Shown here in pieces: positions 13,647 to 21,013 of a stretch of 64,000 nt of DNA. The stretch lies in NCBI GenBank assembly GCA_902614065.1, contig CACMJT010000001.1:218501-282500 (forward strand), read 5' to 3'. The translations under genes and the position numbers were made by a program. The stretch is from an uncultured Bacteroidota bacterium (GTDB taxonomy: Bacteria > Bacteroidota > Bacteroidia > Flavobacteriales > Flavobacteriaceae). The number at the start of each line of letters is the position of its first letter. Within the stretch, counting starts at the first letter, position 1. The notes below the pieces were generated by a model that saw only the letters and a list, made by a program, of their open reading frames with translations, did not search any database and was not told the origin of the DNA.

Positions 13647-15134
13647 ATGAGACACATTACACTATTAATTTTAATTTTTTTATGTTACTCATCAAGTAGT
13701 TATCAACTATCTAAACCCAATATAGTTCTTTTGATGGCCGAGGATATAAGTGTGGACCTTGAAACCTATGGCATGAAGGGGCTTCAAACTCCCAATCTAA
13801 ATTGGATGGCAAATAATGGCCTAAAATTTAATAGATTTTATGGGACAAATCCTATATGCTCACCAAATAGATCTGCGCTTATGATAGGTGTTCATCAAGT
13901 AAAAATGAACACCCACCAGCATAGAAGCAATAGAAAATATATTCTACCTAACGGAATAAAACCTTTTACTTATTGGCTTAGAAAAAACGGATATGCAACC
14001 CATATTGGTCTAGATCCAAAGATCTTGGGAAGCAAGGCTTATGGCGAAGGTAAGTTTGATACGAATTTTAAAAATTCAAAATTTGGAGAGTGGGATGGAG
14101 AAAACAATTTTGGTCTTTTTGATACTGCAAAAAATATTTCTAAAGAATCCCAAAAACCTTTTTTTGCTCAAATAACTTTGAATGCAACGCATAGAGGAAG
14201 ATGGTGGACATCTGTGAGAAATGAATCTAATGATCCTGTTAAAATTGATTCTGTTGAACTTCCACCCTACATGTATGACCATAAATTAATTCGACTTGAT
14301 TGGGCCAAATACTTAGATCAAGTAGAGTTTGTCGATCAACAAGTTGGTAAATTTTTCAACTATCTAAAAAAAGAGGGATTAGATCAAAATACAATTGTAA
14401 TTTTTATTGGTGACAATGGAAGATGCAATGTAAGAGGCAAAGGATATTTATTTGAGCCAGGAATAAATATTCCACTAATAATTTATAACCCTTTCAATGA
14501 AGGAAATAAAATTGTTAATGACCTGGTTACTGTTACTGATTTAACAGCTACCATTTTAGATTATGCTGGAATTGATAAGCCTGAATACATGACAGGAAAT
14601 TCATTTCTAAAGGATGATTTTAATAGAGAATACGTTTATGCGGCCAGGGATCAATGGGATGAAATAATGGATAAATCAAGAGCAATTGTTACAAAAAAAT
14701 GGAAATATATAAGGAATTATAAGCCAGAAATCCCATATGATGCAGGTCAAGCATACTTAGAATTTTATCGCCCAGCTATACATATCATGCGAACAGCAAA
14801 ATCTAAGAATTTACTTACTAACGCCCAATTACACTTTTTCAAGGAATCAAAAGATTTAGAAGAACTTTATGATTTGGAAAATGATCCACACGAAATAAAT
14901 AACCTTGCGTTAGACCCATCATTTCAAAATGTCATGAATAAATTTAGAATTGACATGGAAGAATATAATAAAAGATATAGACCTATGTCTGATGAATATG
15001 AGCCCATTATTGCTGAATCAGTTGTTATTCTTGAATGGGTTAAAAAAAATAGACCTGAGGAATACAAAAGAATGCTGGATGGTTATGAAATTGGATTCTC
15101 AAAATCCAAAGATGAATATTATAAGAATAATTAA
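13647..15134 (+). CDS. Periplasmic sulfatase of the heparan-N-sulfatase-like branch
   Basis: This 495-residue S1-family sulfatase has an ordinary signal peptide (about 1-19), with no lipobox. The first metal motif is AEDIS (Glu32-Asp33) instead of the usual DD, a feature of bacterial sulfatases annotated as heparan N-sulfatase. The formylglycine motif CSPNR (Cys71) is followed by SALMIG in place of the usual LTG. GDNGR gives the second metal segment. The THQHR stretch and the 'DPKILG' Lys replace the GKWHLG block seen in its neighbours. The fold is therefore sure, the substrate (O- or N-sulfate) is not. Its stop codon overlaps the stop of the convergent sulfatase gene by 4 bases. Confidence 0.85.
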   Translation: MRHITLLILIFLCYSSSSYQLSKPNIVLLMAEDISVDLETYGMKGLQTPNLNWMANNGLKFNRFYGTNPICSPNRSALMIGVHQVKMNTHQHRSNRKYILPNGIKPFTYWLRKNGYATHIGLDPKILGSKAYGEGKFDTNFKNSKFGEWDGENNFGLFDTAKNISKESQKPFFAQITLNATHRGRWWTSVRNESNDPVKIDSVELPPYMYDHKLIRLDWAKYLDQVEFVDQQVGKFFNYLKKEGLDQNTIVIFIGDNGRCNVRGKGYLFEPGINIPLIIYNPFNEGNKIVNDLVTVTDLTATILDYAGIDKPEYMTGNSFLKDDFNREYVYAARDQWDEIMDKSRAIVTKKWKYIRNYKPEIPYDAGQAYLEFYRPAIHIMRTAKSKNLLTNAQLHFFKESKDLEELYDLENDPHEINNLALDPSFQNVMNKFRIDMEEYNKRYRPMSDEYEPIIAESVVILEWVKKNRPEEYKRMLDGYEIGFSKSKDEYYKNN

Positions 15135-16549
15135 TAAATGTATCTATCAGGATTAAGTTTGTTATACAACTCATCATCTCTGAGGCCTAAAAAAATGGGA
15201 TCCATTAAAGTTTTATTCCACTCTATACTTTTCTTAACAAGTTCATTAAAAAGTGGTCTATTTTTTTCTATAATATTATTTTTCTCACCTATGTCTGAGT
15301 TCAAGTCAAAAAGCATTGAGTCCCCACGTCTAATAAACATTTTATAATTCTTAGATCTGACTGCGTGTGTTATATAACGTGCTCTAACACCATTTTCAAT
15401 GTAAGGTTGATGCCCGTTATTTCGCCAATAAAGATATTCATGTGGATAACCATTATCAAAACCTTTAATAAATGGTAATAGATCTTTTCCATGAATTTTA
15501 TTTTTTAACTCTAAATCGGGGTTTATAATGGCTTTGCTTGTTGCAAATATATCTAGCGATATTATTGGTTTTGTAAAAATAGTTCCACCTTTAATCTCAT
15601 CCGGCCATTGCATAACAAAAGGAATTCGAATTCCTCCCTCATAAAGGGTTCCTTTATGAGAATTTAGTGGTGCATTATTTGATGCATTACTTTTAGCACC
15701 ACCATTATCAGATAAGAAATATATAATGGTATTATTATAAATATTTTTTTCTTTTAAAGCTGATACAATATCACCCACCCCATCATCAATTGAGCTGACC
15801 ATAGCAGCATAGGTTTTTCTTCGCTTATCTTTGATATGCGAATATCTTTTTAAATATTTTTCTGTAGCCTGTAGTGGTCCGTGTGGAGCATTATATGCCA
15901 AATAAATAAAAAAAGGAGAATTTGAACTTCTTTCAATGAAGCTAACAGTTTCTCTAGAAAGAGCATCAGTTAAATAGTCTTTCTCATCAATCCTTTTCTC
16001 ATTCCTCAATAATTTAGTTCTGTAAGCACAAAAATTACACTTAACTTCAGTTTCATCTGCTAAATTCCACTGTTCAGGGAAATATTGGTGACCACCAGTT
16101 AAAAAACCAAAAAACTCATCAAAGCCCCTGTTCAATGGCCTTAAAGATTCGTGAGCACCTAAATGCCACTTTCCAACAGCTAAAGTTTTGTAATTCTTCG
16201 TTTTAAATAAATCTGCAATAGTAAATTCAGACAAAGGAAGCCCCATGTTAGGATCTTTAGGAGTATACAAGGCATTTAATCCATAACCAAAAGTGTCCTG
16301 ATATCTACCAGTTAGTAATCCAGCTCTGCTTGGTGAGCAAACAGCATAGGAAACATATCCATCTGTAAATATTACACCGTTTTCTGCCAAACCGTCAATA
16401 TTAGGAGTTGAAATTTCGTTTGAGCCCGTAAAGCCTAAGTCGGCATAACCCAAATCATCAACCAAAATCACAATTACATTCGGAAGAGTATCTTTTTTCA
16501 AGTTACACGAAAAAAGGACTATCAGACTAAATAGAAGTATTTTTTTCAT
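15131..16549 (-). CDS. Lipoprotein sulfatase, arylsulfatase A-like
   Basis: This 472-residue S1-family sulfatase has a lipoprotein signal with Cys15 (LFSC). The metal pair VDD is at 30-32 and the formylglycine motif CSPSR follows with Cys71 and AGLLTGR. GKWHLG carries the catalytic Lys and His, and LSDNGGA gives the second metal site. The GFLTGGHQYFP segment and GGIRIPFVMQWP are typical of enzymes in marine galactan loci. It stands alone on the minus strand between two plus-strand sulfatases. It shares TTAA with the stop of the left neighbour and is 43 bases from the start of the right one. Sulfate position is unknown. Confidence 0.9.
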   Translation of the reverse strand: MKKILLFSLIVLFSCNLKKDTLPNVIVILVDDLGYADLGFTGSNEISTPNIDGLAENGVIFTDGYVSYAVCSPSRAGLLTGRYQDTFGYGLNALYTPKDPNMGLPLSEFTIADLFKTKNYKTLAVGKWHLGAHESLRPLNRGFDEFFGFLTGGHQYFPEQWNLADETEVKCNFCAYRTKLLRNEKRIDEKDYLTDALSRETVSFIERSSNSPFFIYLAYNAPHGPLQATEKYLKRYSHIKDKRRKTYAAMVSSIDDGVGDIVSALKEKNIYNNTIIYFLSDNGGAKSNASNNAPLNSHKGTLYEGGIRIPFVMQWPDEIKGGTIFTKPIISLDIFATSKAIINPDLELKNKIHGKDLLPFIKGFDNGYPHEYLYWRNNGHQPYIENGVRARYITHAVRSKNYKMFIRRGDSMLFDLNSDIGEKNNIIEKNRPLFNELVKKSIEWNKTLMDPIFLGLRDDELYNKLNPDRYIY

Positions 16550-16592
16550 TAAGTTAGTGATATAATTACAACTAATTTAGAAAATTATTTTT

Positions 16593-18110
16593 ATGAAAAA
16601 ATTTATCCTTGTTTCGATTTTTTTTGCCTTTTTTTCATGTAATAAAGTTGACTTACCTAAACCAAACGTTATCATCATATACGCAGATGATTTGGGTTAT
16701 GGTGATGTAAGTTCTTACGGGTTAGGTACACTGCAAACTCCAAACATTGACAAAATTGCAAATGATGGTATCCGATTTACAAATGGATATGCAAGCTCTG
16801 CAACATGTAGTCCTAGTAGATATGCACTAATGACAGGAACCTACCCATGGAGAAATAAGAATGCTAAAATTTTAACGGGAGCAAACCTAATCATTGATAC
16901 AACAGAAATGACACTTCCAAAAATGTTTAAATCAATGGGCTATCAAACAGGCATTGTTGGTAAATGGCATTTGGGTCTTGGCGATGGTCCTGTTAATCAC
17001 AACGAATTTATTAGTCCTGGACCAAATGAAGTAGGTTTTGACCATTCATTCATCATGGCAGATACTCAAGATAGAGTGCCAACTGTATATATTGAAAATG
17101 GATTCGTTGTTAATTTAGATACCAATGATCCAATTGAAATCAATTTCAAGGGCAATGATTATGGTTTACCAAGTGGTCTTAAAAACCCTGAGCTATTATC
17201 AATGATGTGGCACCACGGGCACAATGCATCAATAGTGAATGGTGTACCCAGAATTGGATTTCAGAGGGGAGGAAAAAGTGCAATGTGGAGTGATATTGAC
17301 ATGGCAGATAAGTTTTTGGATGAAGCCAAGAAATACGTCAGCACGGTAAAAGATGAACCTTTCTTTTTATTTTACACACTGCAACAACCTCATGTACCAA
17401 GAACTCCTCATCCAAGATTTGAAGGATCCTCAGGAATGGGACCAAGAGGTGATGTAATTGTAGAAGCAGATTGGTGCATAGGTGAAATGTACAAATATTT
17501 GGAGGAGGAAGGTTTAATTGATAACACTATTATAATTATATCAAGCGATAATGGACCTGTTTTAAATGACGGATATTATGATGAAGCCGTTGAGAAATTA
17601 GGTGAACATGACCCTTTTGGTGGCTTAAGAGGAGGAAAGTATAGTTTGTTTGAGGCTGGTACAAGGGTTCCATTTATAACATATTGGAAAGGAAAAATAA
17701 AACCTCAAGTATCTGATGAATTGGTAACACAAATTGATTTTCTCGAATCATTCTCTTCACTAATTGGTTCTGATATAACATCTAAAGATGGTATTGATTT
17801 ATCTGATGTTTTTTTTAGAAACAAGGGGAAAGGAAGAACAGAGTTTGTTTTAGAAGCAACCTCTAGAACAGCGTTTCGTCAAAATAATTGGGTGATGATA
17901 CCACCATACAAAGGCTCACCATTTAATGAATCTGTGAACATTGAAGTTGGTAACTCCAAAAAACATCTTTTGTTCAACCTAGATAAAGATATGTCTCAAG
18001 AATATGATCTATCTGATAGATATCCAGAAAAATTAGATGATATGATTAAAAGGTATGAGGAAATAACAGGCGATGATTTAGGAGAGGTTAAGGAACTTAT
18101 TTTGGAGTAA
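16593..18110 (+). CDS. Lipoprotein sulfatase, arylsulfatase A-like, leading galE-galK
   Basis: This 505-residue S1-family sulfatase has a lipoprotein signal with Cys16 (FFSC). The metal pair ADD is at 31-33 and the formylglycine motif CSPSR follows with Cys72 and YALMTGTYPWR. GKWHLGLG carries the catalytic Lys and His, and SSDNGP the second metal site. The TGTYPWR sequence and the MMWHHGHNAS insertion resemble arylsulfatases of the long S1 subgroup. The stop codon is directly followed by the ATG of galE, so this sulfatase, galE and galK form one operon. That is the best evidence in the window that the desulfated product feeds galactose metabolism. A near-consensus promoter box (TAATTTAG) lies 12 bases before the start. 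Confidence 0.9.
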   Translation: MKKFILVSIFFAFFSCNKVDLPKPNVIIIYADDLGYGDVSSYGLGTLQTPNIDKIANDGIRFTNGYASSATCSPSRYALMTGTYPWRNKNAKILTGANLIIDTTEMTLPKMFKSMGYQTGIVGKWHLGLGDGPVNHNEFISPGPNEVGFDHSFIMADTQDRVPTVYIENGFVVNLDTNDPIEINFKGNDYGLPSGLKNPELLSMMWHHGHNASIVNGVPRIGFQRGGKSAMWSDIDMADKFLDEAKKYVSTVKDEPFFLFYTLQQPHVPRTPHPRFEGSSGMGPRGDVIVEADWCIGEMYKYLEEEGLIDNTIIIISSDNGPVLNDGYYDEAVEKLGEHDPFGGLRGGKYSLFEAGTRVPFITYWKGKIKPQVSDELVTQIDFLESFSSLIGSDITSKDGIDLSDVFFRNKGKGRTEFVLEATSRTAFRQNNWVMIPPYKGSPFNESVNIEVGNSKKHLLFNLDKDMSQEYDLSDRYPEKLDDMIKRYEEITGDDLGEVKELILE

Positions 18111-19121
18111 ATGCAAATACTAGTAACCGGCGGGTTAGGATATATTGGGTCGCATACAACTGTTGAACTTTTACAAAAAGGGTTTGATGTTGTGATAGTT
18201 GATGATTTGTCAAATTCCAAATTAAATGTCTTTGATAAAGTCAAAGAAATTACAGGAAAAAAACCCTATCTTGAAATAATTGATCTAAAAGATAAAATTA
18301 AAGTTGAGAAACTTTTCAGAGATTTTAATTTTGATGGAATTATCCATTTTGCTGCTCATAAATCTGTTAATGAAAGTGTAAATTTTCCCGAAAAATATTT
18401 TAAGAACAATATTGGTGCTCTCGAAAATTTGCTGGAAAATATTGACGAAGAAATGTACTTTATATTTAGCTCAAGCTGTACTGTCTATGGTCAAGCTGAT
18501 AGAATGCCTATAACAGAAACTTTCCCTATTAAAAAAAGTGAATCTCCTTATGGTGAAACTAAACAAATTTGTGAAGGTATTTTAAAAAATTTTTGCGAAG
18601 CTAATCCTCTTTTTAATAATATAACACTGCGTTATTTTAACCCCATAGGAGCGCATAAATCAGGAATGATTGGAGAACTTCCGCTCGGCAAACCTGAAAA
18701 TTTAGTTCCTTTTCTAACACAAACTGCAATTGGAAAAAGGGAGCAATTGGTCGTATTTGGAGATGACTACAACACATCTGATGGAACATGCGTTAGGGAT
18801 TATATTCATATTGAGGATTTGGCTGGTGTTCATGTATCGTGTTTGGAATACTTAATCCAGAAAAAAAATAAAGCGAATTATGAATTTTATAATGTAGGTA
18901 CAGGAAAAGGACTTTCAGTTTTGGAATTGATTAACCTATTTGAAAAGGTTAATAATGTTAAAATCAATTATAGAATTGGTGAAAGAAGAAAAGGTGATGT
19001 TGTAATTGCTTTTGCAGATGTTTCAAAGATTTTAAAAAATGTAGGATGGGAATGTAAATTTTCCGTAGAAGATGCCCTAAAATCATCATGGATATGGGAA
19101 AAAAACTTAAAAAATGAGTAG
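18111..19121 (+). CDS. galE: UDP-glucose 4-epimerase
   Basis: This is a 336-residue extended short-chain dehydrogenase that interconverts UDP-galactose and UDP-glucose with bound NAD. The N-terminal Rossmann motif GGLGYIGSH is at residues 7-15. The catalytic Ser/Thr region FSSSCTVYG follows, then the Tyr-Lys pair in SPYGETK. NPIGAH and the DGTCVRDYIH segment are typical of GalE. Length matches the family. It starts at the base after the upstream sulfatase stop and overlaps galK by 8 bases, so it is translationally coupled to both. It is cytoplasmic. It acts in the Leloir pathway, and here also links to UDP-sugar supply for cell-envelope glycans. Confidence 0.95.
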   Translation: MQILVTGGLGYIGSHTTVELLQKGFDVVIVDDLSNSKLNVFDKVKEITGKKPYLEIIDLKDKIKVEKLFRDFNFDGIIHFAAHKSVNESVNFPEKYFKNNIGALENLLENIDEEMYFIFSSSCTVYGQADRMPITETFPIKKSESPYGETKQICEGILKNFCEANPLFNNITLRYFNPIGAHKSGMIGELPLGKPENLVPFLTQTAIGKREQLVVFGDDYNTSDGTCVRDYIHIEDLAGVHVSCLEYLIQKKNKANYEFYNVGTGKGLSVLELINLFEKVNNVKINYRIGERRKGDVVIAFADVSKILKNVGWECKFSVEDALKSSWIWEKNLKNE

Positions 19122-20229
19122 TTTAATTATAGAATCTTCAGGAAGAATTAACATGATTGGTGAACATGTTGACTATAATGGCGGATGTGTATTACCTGGC
19201 TCTATAGATAAAAAAATACGATTTAAATTTTACAAAATTGAAGGAATAGATTGTCACGTAAAGTCAATAACACTTGATAAGGAATTCAAATTTAGTTTTA
19301 AAGATTTAAGTCCCCGAAAAGTTCATTGGGAAAACTACATCATTGGTGCAGTAAATTATTTAATAAATAAAAAGTTTTTGAGTTTGAGCACTTTTTCTTG
19401 TGAAATCAGCAGTTTTCTTCCCATTGGTGCTGGAATTAGTTCATCATCTTCACTTATATGTGGAATGGTTAAAGGCCTAATTGAGTTAAATGATTTGAAC
19501 CTTTCAAATAATGAAATTGTAGATATTGTTTTGGATGTTGAACACAACTACATTGGACTCAAGGGCGGAATAATGGACCAATTCACAATTTTAAATGGGA
19601 AAAAAGATCATTTGATTTTATTAAAATGCCAAAATCGTGAATTTAAACACATCCCCTCAAACCTTAAAAATTTTAAAATTCTTCTGTTAAATACAAATGT
19701 GGAGCACAACCTTGCTAATACTGCTTACAATGAAAGAGTAAATGAATGTAATGATGCTTTAAAAATTATAAATAAGAATGCTGATACCAATTTTAGTTTT
19801 CTGTGTGAGGTTCCTGAAAAAATATTAAATAATAATAAAAAGTTTTTACCTAAGACACTGTTCAGTAGAGCATCTTTTGTTATAAAAGAAAATTTAAGAA
19901 CCATAAAGTCTGCTGAAATATTGGAAAACAACAAACTTTCTGAGCTGGGGAACCTAATGTATGAGTCACATTTTGGGTTATCAAAACTTTACAAAGTTAG
20001 TTGCGAAGAATTAGATTTTTTAGTTGACTTAACTAGAAATCACCAAAAAATTATTGGTTCAAGGATGATGGGAGGTGGATTTGGCGGCTGTACAATAAAT
20101 TTGATCCAAGATGACTTTATAGGCCAATTTGTGGATGAATCTTGTAAAGCTTATTACGAAAAATTTGGAAAAGAGGCTACACCAATCCTTGCAGAACTTG
20201 ACAATGGCATCACGATAAAAAAGACCTAA
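19114..20229 (+). CDS. galK: Galactokinase
   Basis: This 371-residue GHMP kinase phosphorylates galactose to galactose-1-phosphate with ATP. It has the galactokinase signature region GRINMIGEHVDYNGG near the N-terminus and the ATP-binding loop LPIGAGISSSSSL. The catalytic Asp lies in KGGIMDQF, and the C-terminal GHMP motif is MMGGGFGGCTI. It overlaps galE by 8 bases and ends the sulfatase-galE-galK operon. The 3' end abuts an RNA gene on the other strand. The uridylyltransferase galT, needed between these two steps, is not in the window and would have to be encoded elsewhere or replaced by a UTP-dependent pyrophosphorylase. Confidence 0.95.
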   Translation: MSSLIIESSGRINMIGEHVDYNGGCVLPGSIDKKIRFKFYKIEGIDCHVKSITLDKEFKFSFKDLSPRKVHWENYIIGAVNYLINKKFLSLSTFSCEISSFLPIGAGISSSSSLICGMVKGLIELNDLNLSNNEIVDIVLDVEHNYIGLKGGIMDQFTILNGKKDHLILLKCQNREFKHIPSNLKNFKILLLNTNVEHNLANTAYNERVNECNDALKIINKNADTNFSFLCEVPEKILNNNKKFLPKTLFSRASFVIKENLRTIKSAEILENNKLSELGNLMYESHFGLSKLYKVSCEELDFLVDLTRNHQKIIGSRMMGGGFGGCTINLIQDDFIGQFVDESCKAYYEKFGKEATPILAELDNGITIKKT

Positions 20230-20370
20230 AGGCAGAAAGATTGTATAAACTCTGTTTATACAAGTTTAAGGCTAACTGAATATTCGATAATCCTTTTCAG
20301 GCACGCTCTAGCAAACAGACTCACCTTTTTTAATAAAATTAGTGTTGAGTTTACCAATGATTATCTGCCT
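20230..20370 (-). ncRNA. ssrS: 6S RNA-like regulatory RNA (6S-Flavo type) downstream of zapA
   Basis: The 165-base gap between galK and zapA folds on the minus strand as a long rod. The ends AGGCAGA and TCTGCCT pair. A second stem pairs ATTG+GTAAACTC with GAGTTTAT+CAAT with one bulged A. A large open bubble follows, then an apical arm with GCTA/TAGC and CTGAA/TTCAG. A closing stem, central bubble and apical arm make up the 6S layout that mimics an open promoter. The position just after zapA matches the zapA-ssrS linkage known from proteobacteria. A perfect 10-bp hairpin on the 3' side (20241-20263) competes with the closing stem. On the plus strand the same hairpin could help terminate galK. 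Bacteroidota have a known variant, 6S-Flavo. Assignment is from structure and context only. Confidence 0.65.
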
Positions 20371-20394
20371 AAGGTCAATATATTATGATCGTAG

Positions 20395-20679
20395 TTAATT
20401 GATATTTTTGTCAATTAACTCAATAAGTTCTTTAAGTTTTTCCTCCGTATTTGTTCCTAATTTGGATTGATCCATTGTGATTTTTTTGTTGTTCGTAAAA
20501 ATTTCTAATGCACACATTGCTAAACTGTCTTGTTTATCTTTAACTGCATAGCTTTTTTCATATTTTATTATCATCTCGTTAATTTCTTTCGCAGCTTTTC
20601 TCAAAACTTCCTCTTGCTCCATATTAACACTCAATGGATAAATCCTATTTCCAATATTTAATTTAATTTTTTGTTTCAT
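20395..20679 (-). CDS. zapA: Cell division protein ZapA
   Basis: This small cytoplasmic protein of 94 residues binds and bundles FtsZ at the division site. The N-terminal part (KIKLNIGNRIYPLSV, residues 3-17) is the beta hairpin typical of ZapA. The segment EEVLRKAAKEINEMIIKYE starts the long helix, and LAMCALEIFTNNK matches the family's central helix. Length is usual for the family in Bacteroidota. It is one base from the coiled-coil gene upstream on the same strand, and a 6S-like RNA follows it. The C-terminal third is Lys-rich and helical, as expected for the dimeric coiled coil. Confidence 0.85.
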   Translation of the reverse strand: MKQKIKLNIGNRIYPLSVNMEQEEVLRKAAKEINEMIIKYEKSYAVKDKQDSLAMCALEIFTNNKKITMDQSKLGTNTEEKLKELIELIDKNIN

Positions 20680-20680
20680 T

Positions 20681-21013
20681 TTAAGAAGAAAGATTTGAGA
20701 TGCAAAAATCTAAATCCTGAATCATTTTATCAATTCTTTTTTTGACATATTTTTTGCCATCAGATTCTAAAAATTTACCAATCCTTAATGATTGATAATT
20801 TAATTTTGAGTTTCTTAAATCTTCAACAAGCTTTTCATTTTGATTCTTTAATAAATCAATTTTATTTTTAATTTCTAAATTTTCTGATTTTAAATTATTG
20901 TAATTATTTATAAGCGAATTAATTTTATCATATAAAATTTCAATATTTTGAGTTGAATCTTTCAATTTATTTTTTATATATCTAAATTTAATTTTAGTTG
21001 TTATCAAATGCAA
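20681..21013 (-). CDS. Coiled-coil protein upstream of zapA, function unknown
   Basis: This 110-residue protein is almost entirely coiled coil, with heptads from about residue 15 to 80 (KINSLINNYNNLKSENLEIK). It closes with a conserved tail (LRIGKFLESDGKKYVKKRIDKMIQDLDFCI) that I recognise from a family found beside zapA in many Bacteroidota. The N-terminus is uncertain. The TTG at 21013 lies only 8 bases from the divergent TTG of the peptidase gene, so the true start may be further in. No ATG occurs near the start. A role with ZapA in division, like that of the coiled-coil ZapB of proteobacteria, is only a guess from position and shape. Confidence 0.65.
   Translation of the reverse strand: MHLITTKIKFRYIKNKLKDSTQNIEILYDKINSLINNYNNLKSENLEIKNKIDLLKNQNEKLVEDLRNSKLNYQSLRIGKFLESDGKKYVKKRIDKMIQDLDFCISNLSS

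Follow-up and report, generated by a model that had tools for sequence, protein, structure and literature searches.

6S RNA is a small RNA that inhibits cellular RNA polymerase; for the relatives in E. coli and B. subtilis, binding of the housekeeping-sigma polymerase and its block are both known. In E. coli the 6S gene (ssrS, RF00013) lies 41 nt after zapA. A 9-bp hairpin on the 3' side of the E. coli central bubble shares the 3' strand of P2, the inner closing helix, and drives release (PMC8876501). The closest described family to the RNA treated here is 6S-Flavo (RF01685), which it resembles in sequence, in apical structure and in taxon, Flavobacteriaceae (Weinberg et al. 2010, PMC2864571). 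Transcription of 6S has been documented in F. psychrophilum (PMC9723704), and for B. thetaiotaomicron 6S together with its product RNAs has been reported (PMC7366714).

The window, that is the whole 64,000-nt stretch of flavobacteriaceal DNA analysed here, encodes a real and already catalogued 6S RNA, a member of the 6S-Flavo family. With cmscan, RF01685 matches the minus strand at 20247-20350 over its full length (1-108) with 91.8 bits, where 85 are needed to pass gathering; this is the sole Rfam match at gathering in the 64-kb window. The 6S identity put forward in the original prediction is thereby borne out. Of the two Infernal models named there, 6S-Flavo matches and the classical 6S model, RF00013, does not (no match at E<=1 in a 271-base search), as is to be expected because 6S-Flavo has a model of its own. 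RF00013 was rejected as a better home for the RNA on the same ground. The RNA also has the AAACUCA and GAGUUU strands at P2 in common with Bacteroidales-1, a suggested Bacteroidales 6S (RF01693), but it reaches only 20.4 bits there against a cut-off of 60, and that family was rejected as well. RF01685 is present once in the window's own genome. The comparative sample consisted of one genome per genus of the window's family (151 genomes) plus same-genus genomes, from which 126 sequences were oriented; RF01685 was found in 148 of the 151 family genomes, a single copy in each, and in 126 of the 126 complete genomes.

The RF01685 model is made up of 108 central positions only, and the present comparison adds to it P2 and a covarying terminal stem that includes the terminator. 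The RNA begins with GACCUUAGGCAGA (20376-20364), and at its 3' end UCUGCCUUUAGGUC (20236-20223) leads into U6 (20222-20217). The originally proposed extent of 140 nt (20230-20370) therefore lies within the 6S RNA and falls short of its actual span of about 160 nt (Table 1). In a 78-sequence alignment of relatives, 97% of cells are paired in the terminal stem and P2 taken together, and P2 alone has 99% of cells paired, with compensatory changes. Changes on both sides occur in 9 of the 10 terminal stem pairs, and in 13 of 17 pairs when P2 is included. Cells with both-side changes number 114, compared with 33 after shuffling and between 1 and 26 in slid controls; such counts ignore kinship among the sequences, which the slid controls retain. 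The RNAalifold consensus has the same closing helices and an apical arm, and the folded window RNA has a z of -2.8 relative to dinucleotide shuffles. The long-range pairing of the ends, the bubble and the apical arm that had been proposed from the single sequence are all recovered, and they follow the general 6S architecture. The long-range closing stem, the central bubble, the apical arm and a zapA gene directly upstream are likenesses to E. coli 6S; unlike the latter, the window RNA has neither an RF00013 match nor ygfA/fau downstream.

Table 1. Positions of the 6S RNA gene, its structural parts and the neighbouring genes in the window
Feature	Position	Strand	Basis
galK, convergent neighbour, 3' end overlaps 6S terminator	19114..20229	+	PF10509, PF00288, PF08544
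6S RNA gene (6S-Flavo, ~160 nt, terminal stem through end of U-run)	20217..20376	-	cmscan, fold, ends conserved in 78 relatives
U6 run after closing stem, intrinsic terminator of 6S RNA	20217..20222	-	sequence
Terminal closing stem, 3' strand UCUGCCUUUAGGUC	20223..20236	-	pairs with 20364-20376
10-bp hairpin UUGUAUAAAC-AGA-GUUUAUACAA, 3' side of central bubble, excludes P2	20241..20263	-	exact inverted repeat
P2 3' strand GAGUUUA, common to P2 and hairpin	20246..20252	-	pairing with 20347-20353
P2 5' strand UAAACUC	20347..20353	-	paired, compensatory changes
Terminal closing stem, 5' strand GACCUUAGGCAGA	20364..20376	-	pairs with 20223-20236; covaries in relatives
Degenerate boxA-like element ACGATCATAATATA (relatives: ACGTTC[A/T]TTAAAATA)	20379..20392	-	sequence comparison with relatives
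zapA, upstream neighbour of 6S	20395..20679	-	PF05164 E 2.1e-15, 57.2 bits
zapB-like ORF, first gene of putative zapB-zapA-6S unit	20681..21013	-	weak PF06005; position as in relatives

Read from its sequence, the closing stem with its U6 run doubles as the intrinsic terminator of the 6S RNA. A U-run after the closing stem is present in nearly all relatives. In the window the 6S 3' end and terminator share 13 nt (20217-20229) with the 3' end of galK, the galK stop codon among them. The 10-bp hairpin is itself a strong inverted repeat between two convergent genes, and it could for that reason be taken for an ordinary transcription terminator of galK or zapA instead of a part of a regulatory RNA. 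Its composition (all A-U except two pairs), the lack of a U-run after it on either strand and the existence of a minus-strand terminator in the closing stem and U6, conserved also where the downstream gene is not galK, make such a role very improbable.

As a part of the 6S RNA, the hairpin at 20241-20263 is exactly as originally described, with 10 perfect pairs; on the plus strand it reads TTGTATAAAC (20241-20250), TCT and GTTTATACAA (20254-20263). The two exclusive folds that had been proposed along with it are also found, since positions 20246-20250 are shared with P2, so that hairpin and P2 are mutually exclusive, and the folds are nearly isoenergetic by RNAfold (-40.1 kcal/mol with the hairpin, -39.7 with P2 enforced). 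Together with P2 the segment folds to -7.8 kcal/mol, whereas versions with a shuffled bubble strand average -1.8 (p about 0.01). P2 has a median probability of 0.98 across the family and of 0.68 in the window's genus. When the 5' strand is blocked, which mimics a product RNA, the 3'-bubble hairpin is predicted with a probability above 0.5 in 16 of 16 genus members and in only 16 of 110 other genera. Hairpins of 8-10 bp form in the window's genus, which is thereby set apart from 6S-Flavo generally by a longer exclusive hairpin, and only there does the hairpin reach the perfect 10 bp. Elsewhere in the family the counterpart is a shorter helix in another register, in which the bubble strand (UAAACUU or UAAACCU) nearly copies the P2 5' strand UAAACUC, both being able to pair with GAGUUUA. 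This general 3'-bubble helix has 90% of cells paired, compared with 20-67% in slid controls; covariation beyond shuffles was not found for it, and its conservation could therefore be due to something else. By these comparisons, the 10-bp hairpin is a genus-level elaboration, with a weaker competing helix predicted in most of the family. This weaker helix, too, is similar to the E. coli 3'-bubble hairpin, which pairs with the P2 3' strand.

The window hairpin is like that of E. coli in sharing the P2 3' strand, and because the equivalent E. coli hairpin drives release (PMC8876501), a function as a release switch, strengthened in the window's genus, is plausible by analogy. The E. coli hairpin forms once P2 opens, whereas the window hairpin is nearly isoenergetic with P2 beforehand. 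Its competition with P2 begins already in the free RNA, and it may instead be a quirk of the lineage or a structure that pre-forms in free RNA and aids binding, as a small 3'-bubble hairpin does form in advance, and may help binding, in B. subtilis 6S-1 (PMC8876501). Such a reading, in which the RNA is a 6S RNA but the hairpin is not its release switch, has a substantial probability somewhat short of even. The restriction of the perfect form to one genus and the missing covariation signal of the general helix would agree with it. It has to contend with two further observations: the 16 genus members have changed in sequence, yet all keep a hairpin on this P2 strand in either of two registers, and the two near-repeats, P2 5' strand and 3'-bubble strand, have changed in parallel in two genomes (L052 and L065).

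With the hairpin as a release switch, the working of the RNA could be as follows. Mature 6S RNA would mimic an open promoter and sequester the housekeeping RNA polymerase. When nucleotides return, the polymerase would copy a short product RNA from the 5' side of the bubble into P2, whose 5' strand is, by analogy, the expected template side. Synthesis of the product RNA would free the P2 3' strand, which could then snap into the 10-bp hairpin of the 3' bubble and so help to eject the polymerase. The 6S RNA is probably the untranslated final cistron of a zapB-zapA-6S unit, and it ends at the closing-stem terminator. We infer polymerase binding, the product RNA, the hairpin release switch and co-transcription with zapA. 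As a joint claim, it is likely that the locus specifies a 6S-Flavo RNA that is probably the last cistron of zapB-zapA-6S, self-terminated, polymerase-sequestering and hairpin-released.

The linkage to zapA holds well beyond the window. The window's upstream gene matches PF05164 with 57.2 bits, and its stop codon lies 18 nt before the 6S terminal stem. Of 111 genera, 110 have an ORF that matches ZapA of the window and stops shortly ahead of the 6S core; in the remaining one a contig end cuts the locus. The gap from zapA to the 6S core is 30-69 nt over all 126 sequences. The zapB-like ORF has 22.5 bits against PF06005, below the cut-off of 31.5. Downstream of 6S, galK is found in the window's subclade and a rny-type gene in other relatives. 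Beyond galK, three sulfatase-like ORFs and a galE-like epimerase ORF, recognised by eye, occupy window positions 13647-19121 and are followed by galK; this is perhaps a cluster for the use of sulfated polysaccharide. On one Aequorivita MAG contig (JAGXGE010000027.1; L241 and L266) the zapA-6S region occurs twice, inverted and identical over at least 6.3 kb, which is either a real duplication or an assembly artefact.

Two order-level genomes keep the zapA-6S arrangement. In other classes of the phylum an RF00013-type 6S follows zapA, with 47.1 bits, above the cut-off, in one member (L171), weaker RF00013 matches after zapA in two (L180 and L185), and further members recognised by eye. In several further families of Bacteroidia, a gene of another kind, rny-like by its start (by eye), comes immediately after zapA and leaves no space for 6S. 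The original comparison with proteobacteria is apt in that zapA lies directly upstream of ssrS in E. coli. The very old gene neighbourhood suggested there is shared by the other classes and E. coli and is missing from several Bacteroidia families; an old zapA-6S linkage, with losses or moves, is supported. Within the same class, a family designated f3, which we tentatively take to be Sphingobacteriales-like, has 6S-like RNAs, 164-177 nt long and placed between zapA and a rny-type gene, with closing stem and U-run (L146:319-495:+, L147:309-472:+, L149:460-628:-, L151:373-545:-, L154:385-557:-). In these five genomes the RNAs are unmatched by Rfam 15 at E<=1, and the Rfam search of the class-level regions downstream of zapA found no 6S, though five of them carry an evident 6S-like RNA.

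Elements of the boxA type are known from rRNA operons and CRISPR arrays (PMC5725501, PMC7862264); non-coding RNAs were outside the scope of the published boxA survey (PMC5725501). In 86 of 110 genera GTTC[T/A]TT is found in the interval from the zapA stop codon to 6S (1.2 expected in shuffles), its G being 0-3 nt past the stop codon in most. The longer form GTTCTTTAAAA, with up to one mismatch, is found in 78 of 110 (0.45 expected). From the element it is roughly 20-25 nt to the 6S terminal stem and about 50 nt to the 6S core (e.g. L002-L031). Elsewhere in 30 three-kilobase loci GTTC[T/A]TT has 10 occurrences on the same strand in 93 kb. The same core stands at the expected rRNA boxA sites of 16S leaders and 16S-23S spacers (GTTCATTGACATATTG, GTTCTTTGACATATTG, GTTCTTTAAAGAAA). 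The f3 loci have exact GTTCTTT in four of five and GTTCTTA in the fifth, and in other classes G[T/C]TCTTT occurs in 5 of 11 6S-bearing members (0.13 expected). No boxA was seen in the E. coli zapA-ssrS gap, a difference from the relatives of the window. Like the known boxA elements, those of the relatives precede an untranslated RNA. Unlike them, they are associated with 6S, an association for which a literature search on boxA together with 6S RNA returned only unrelated papers, and which appears not to have been reported before. A further difference is that the element is degenerate in the window's subclade (L001, L121, L123, L127), where ACGATC replaces ACGTTC and the core thus has GATC for GTTC; other genus members keep AACGTTCATT. 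The boxA proposal thus has its basis in the relatives and not in the window. The element was rejected as a general mark of stable RNAs, being absent before rnpB in 28 of 28, and the 13-mer GTTCTTTAAAATA was rejected as a genome-wide unique tag, having 2-3 copies per genome.

A position shortly before the terminal stem would also suit a promoter or a cleavage site, and 6S RNAs are often processed. GTTC[T/A]TT might then be no boxA but serve an alternative sigma factor as the promoter of 6S, or mark a site of RNA processing. This is rather unlikely. The element has its core in common with the rRNA boxA of these genomes and comes without the sigma-A -7 box; it is missing throughout before rnpB, a gene with a promoter of its own; and GTTCTTTAAAA is identical to the boxA of the Legionella CRISPR array, where it is functional and was shown to raise transcript about tenfold (PMC7862264).

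The sigma-A -7 box is TAnnTTTG (PMC9723704). It occurs within 150 nt upstream of 6S in only 5 of 109 genera, and a sigma-A promoter right before 6S was rejected on this count. Before rnpB it is present in 25 of 28, mostly right at the rnpB 5' end, with boxA in 0 of 28. Each of the 30 long family loci (L002-L031) has a conserved TTG-TAACTTTG promoter ~30 nt before zapB and ~690 nt ahead of 6S; within the window's genus this promoter is matched weakly, as in the window's subclade, or not at all. Taken together, the lack of a sigma-A promoter at 6S, the boxA-like element after zapA and the promoter before zapB suggest that 6S is read through from zapBA with the help of NusB/S10. The simplest reading would be a single unit, promoter-zapB-zapA-boxA-6S-terminator, from which 6S is cut out afterwards. 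A boxA at the zapA stop codon would recruit the rRNA antitermination factors NusB/S10 and so protect the untranslated 6S stretch. We lean slightly towards the general form of this proposal, in which 6S in much of the Bacteroidota is promoterless and made by zapBA read-through under a boxA that recruits NusB/S10, the window's subclade having lost the intact element.

The RNA itself is of an already known kind, to which the present analysis adds full gene boundaries, a terminator and a clean candidate for a two-fold switch; the main weight lies mostly on the boxA-zapA-6S arrangement. If true, a conserved zapB-zapA-boxA-6S-terminator unit would account for the making of 6S in a large phylum. It would be an instance of a small regulatory RNA served by a boxA, and the zapA-6S linkage, puzzling in its great age, would have a concrete reason. 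Production of an RNA polymerase inhibitor would then be tied to the rRNA transcription machinery and to cell division.

In two deep lineages without the boxA-like element (L174 and L178), the zapA-6S gap has an apparent sigma70-type promoter (for example TTGACA ... TATCCT), as though 6S were served by one or the other, a boxA or a promoter of its own.
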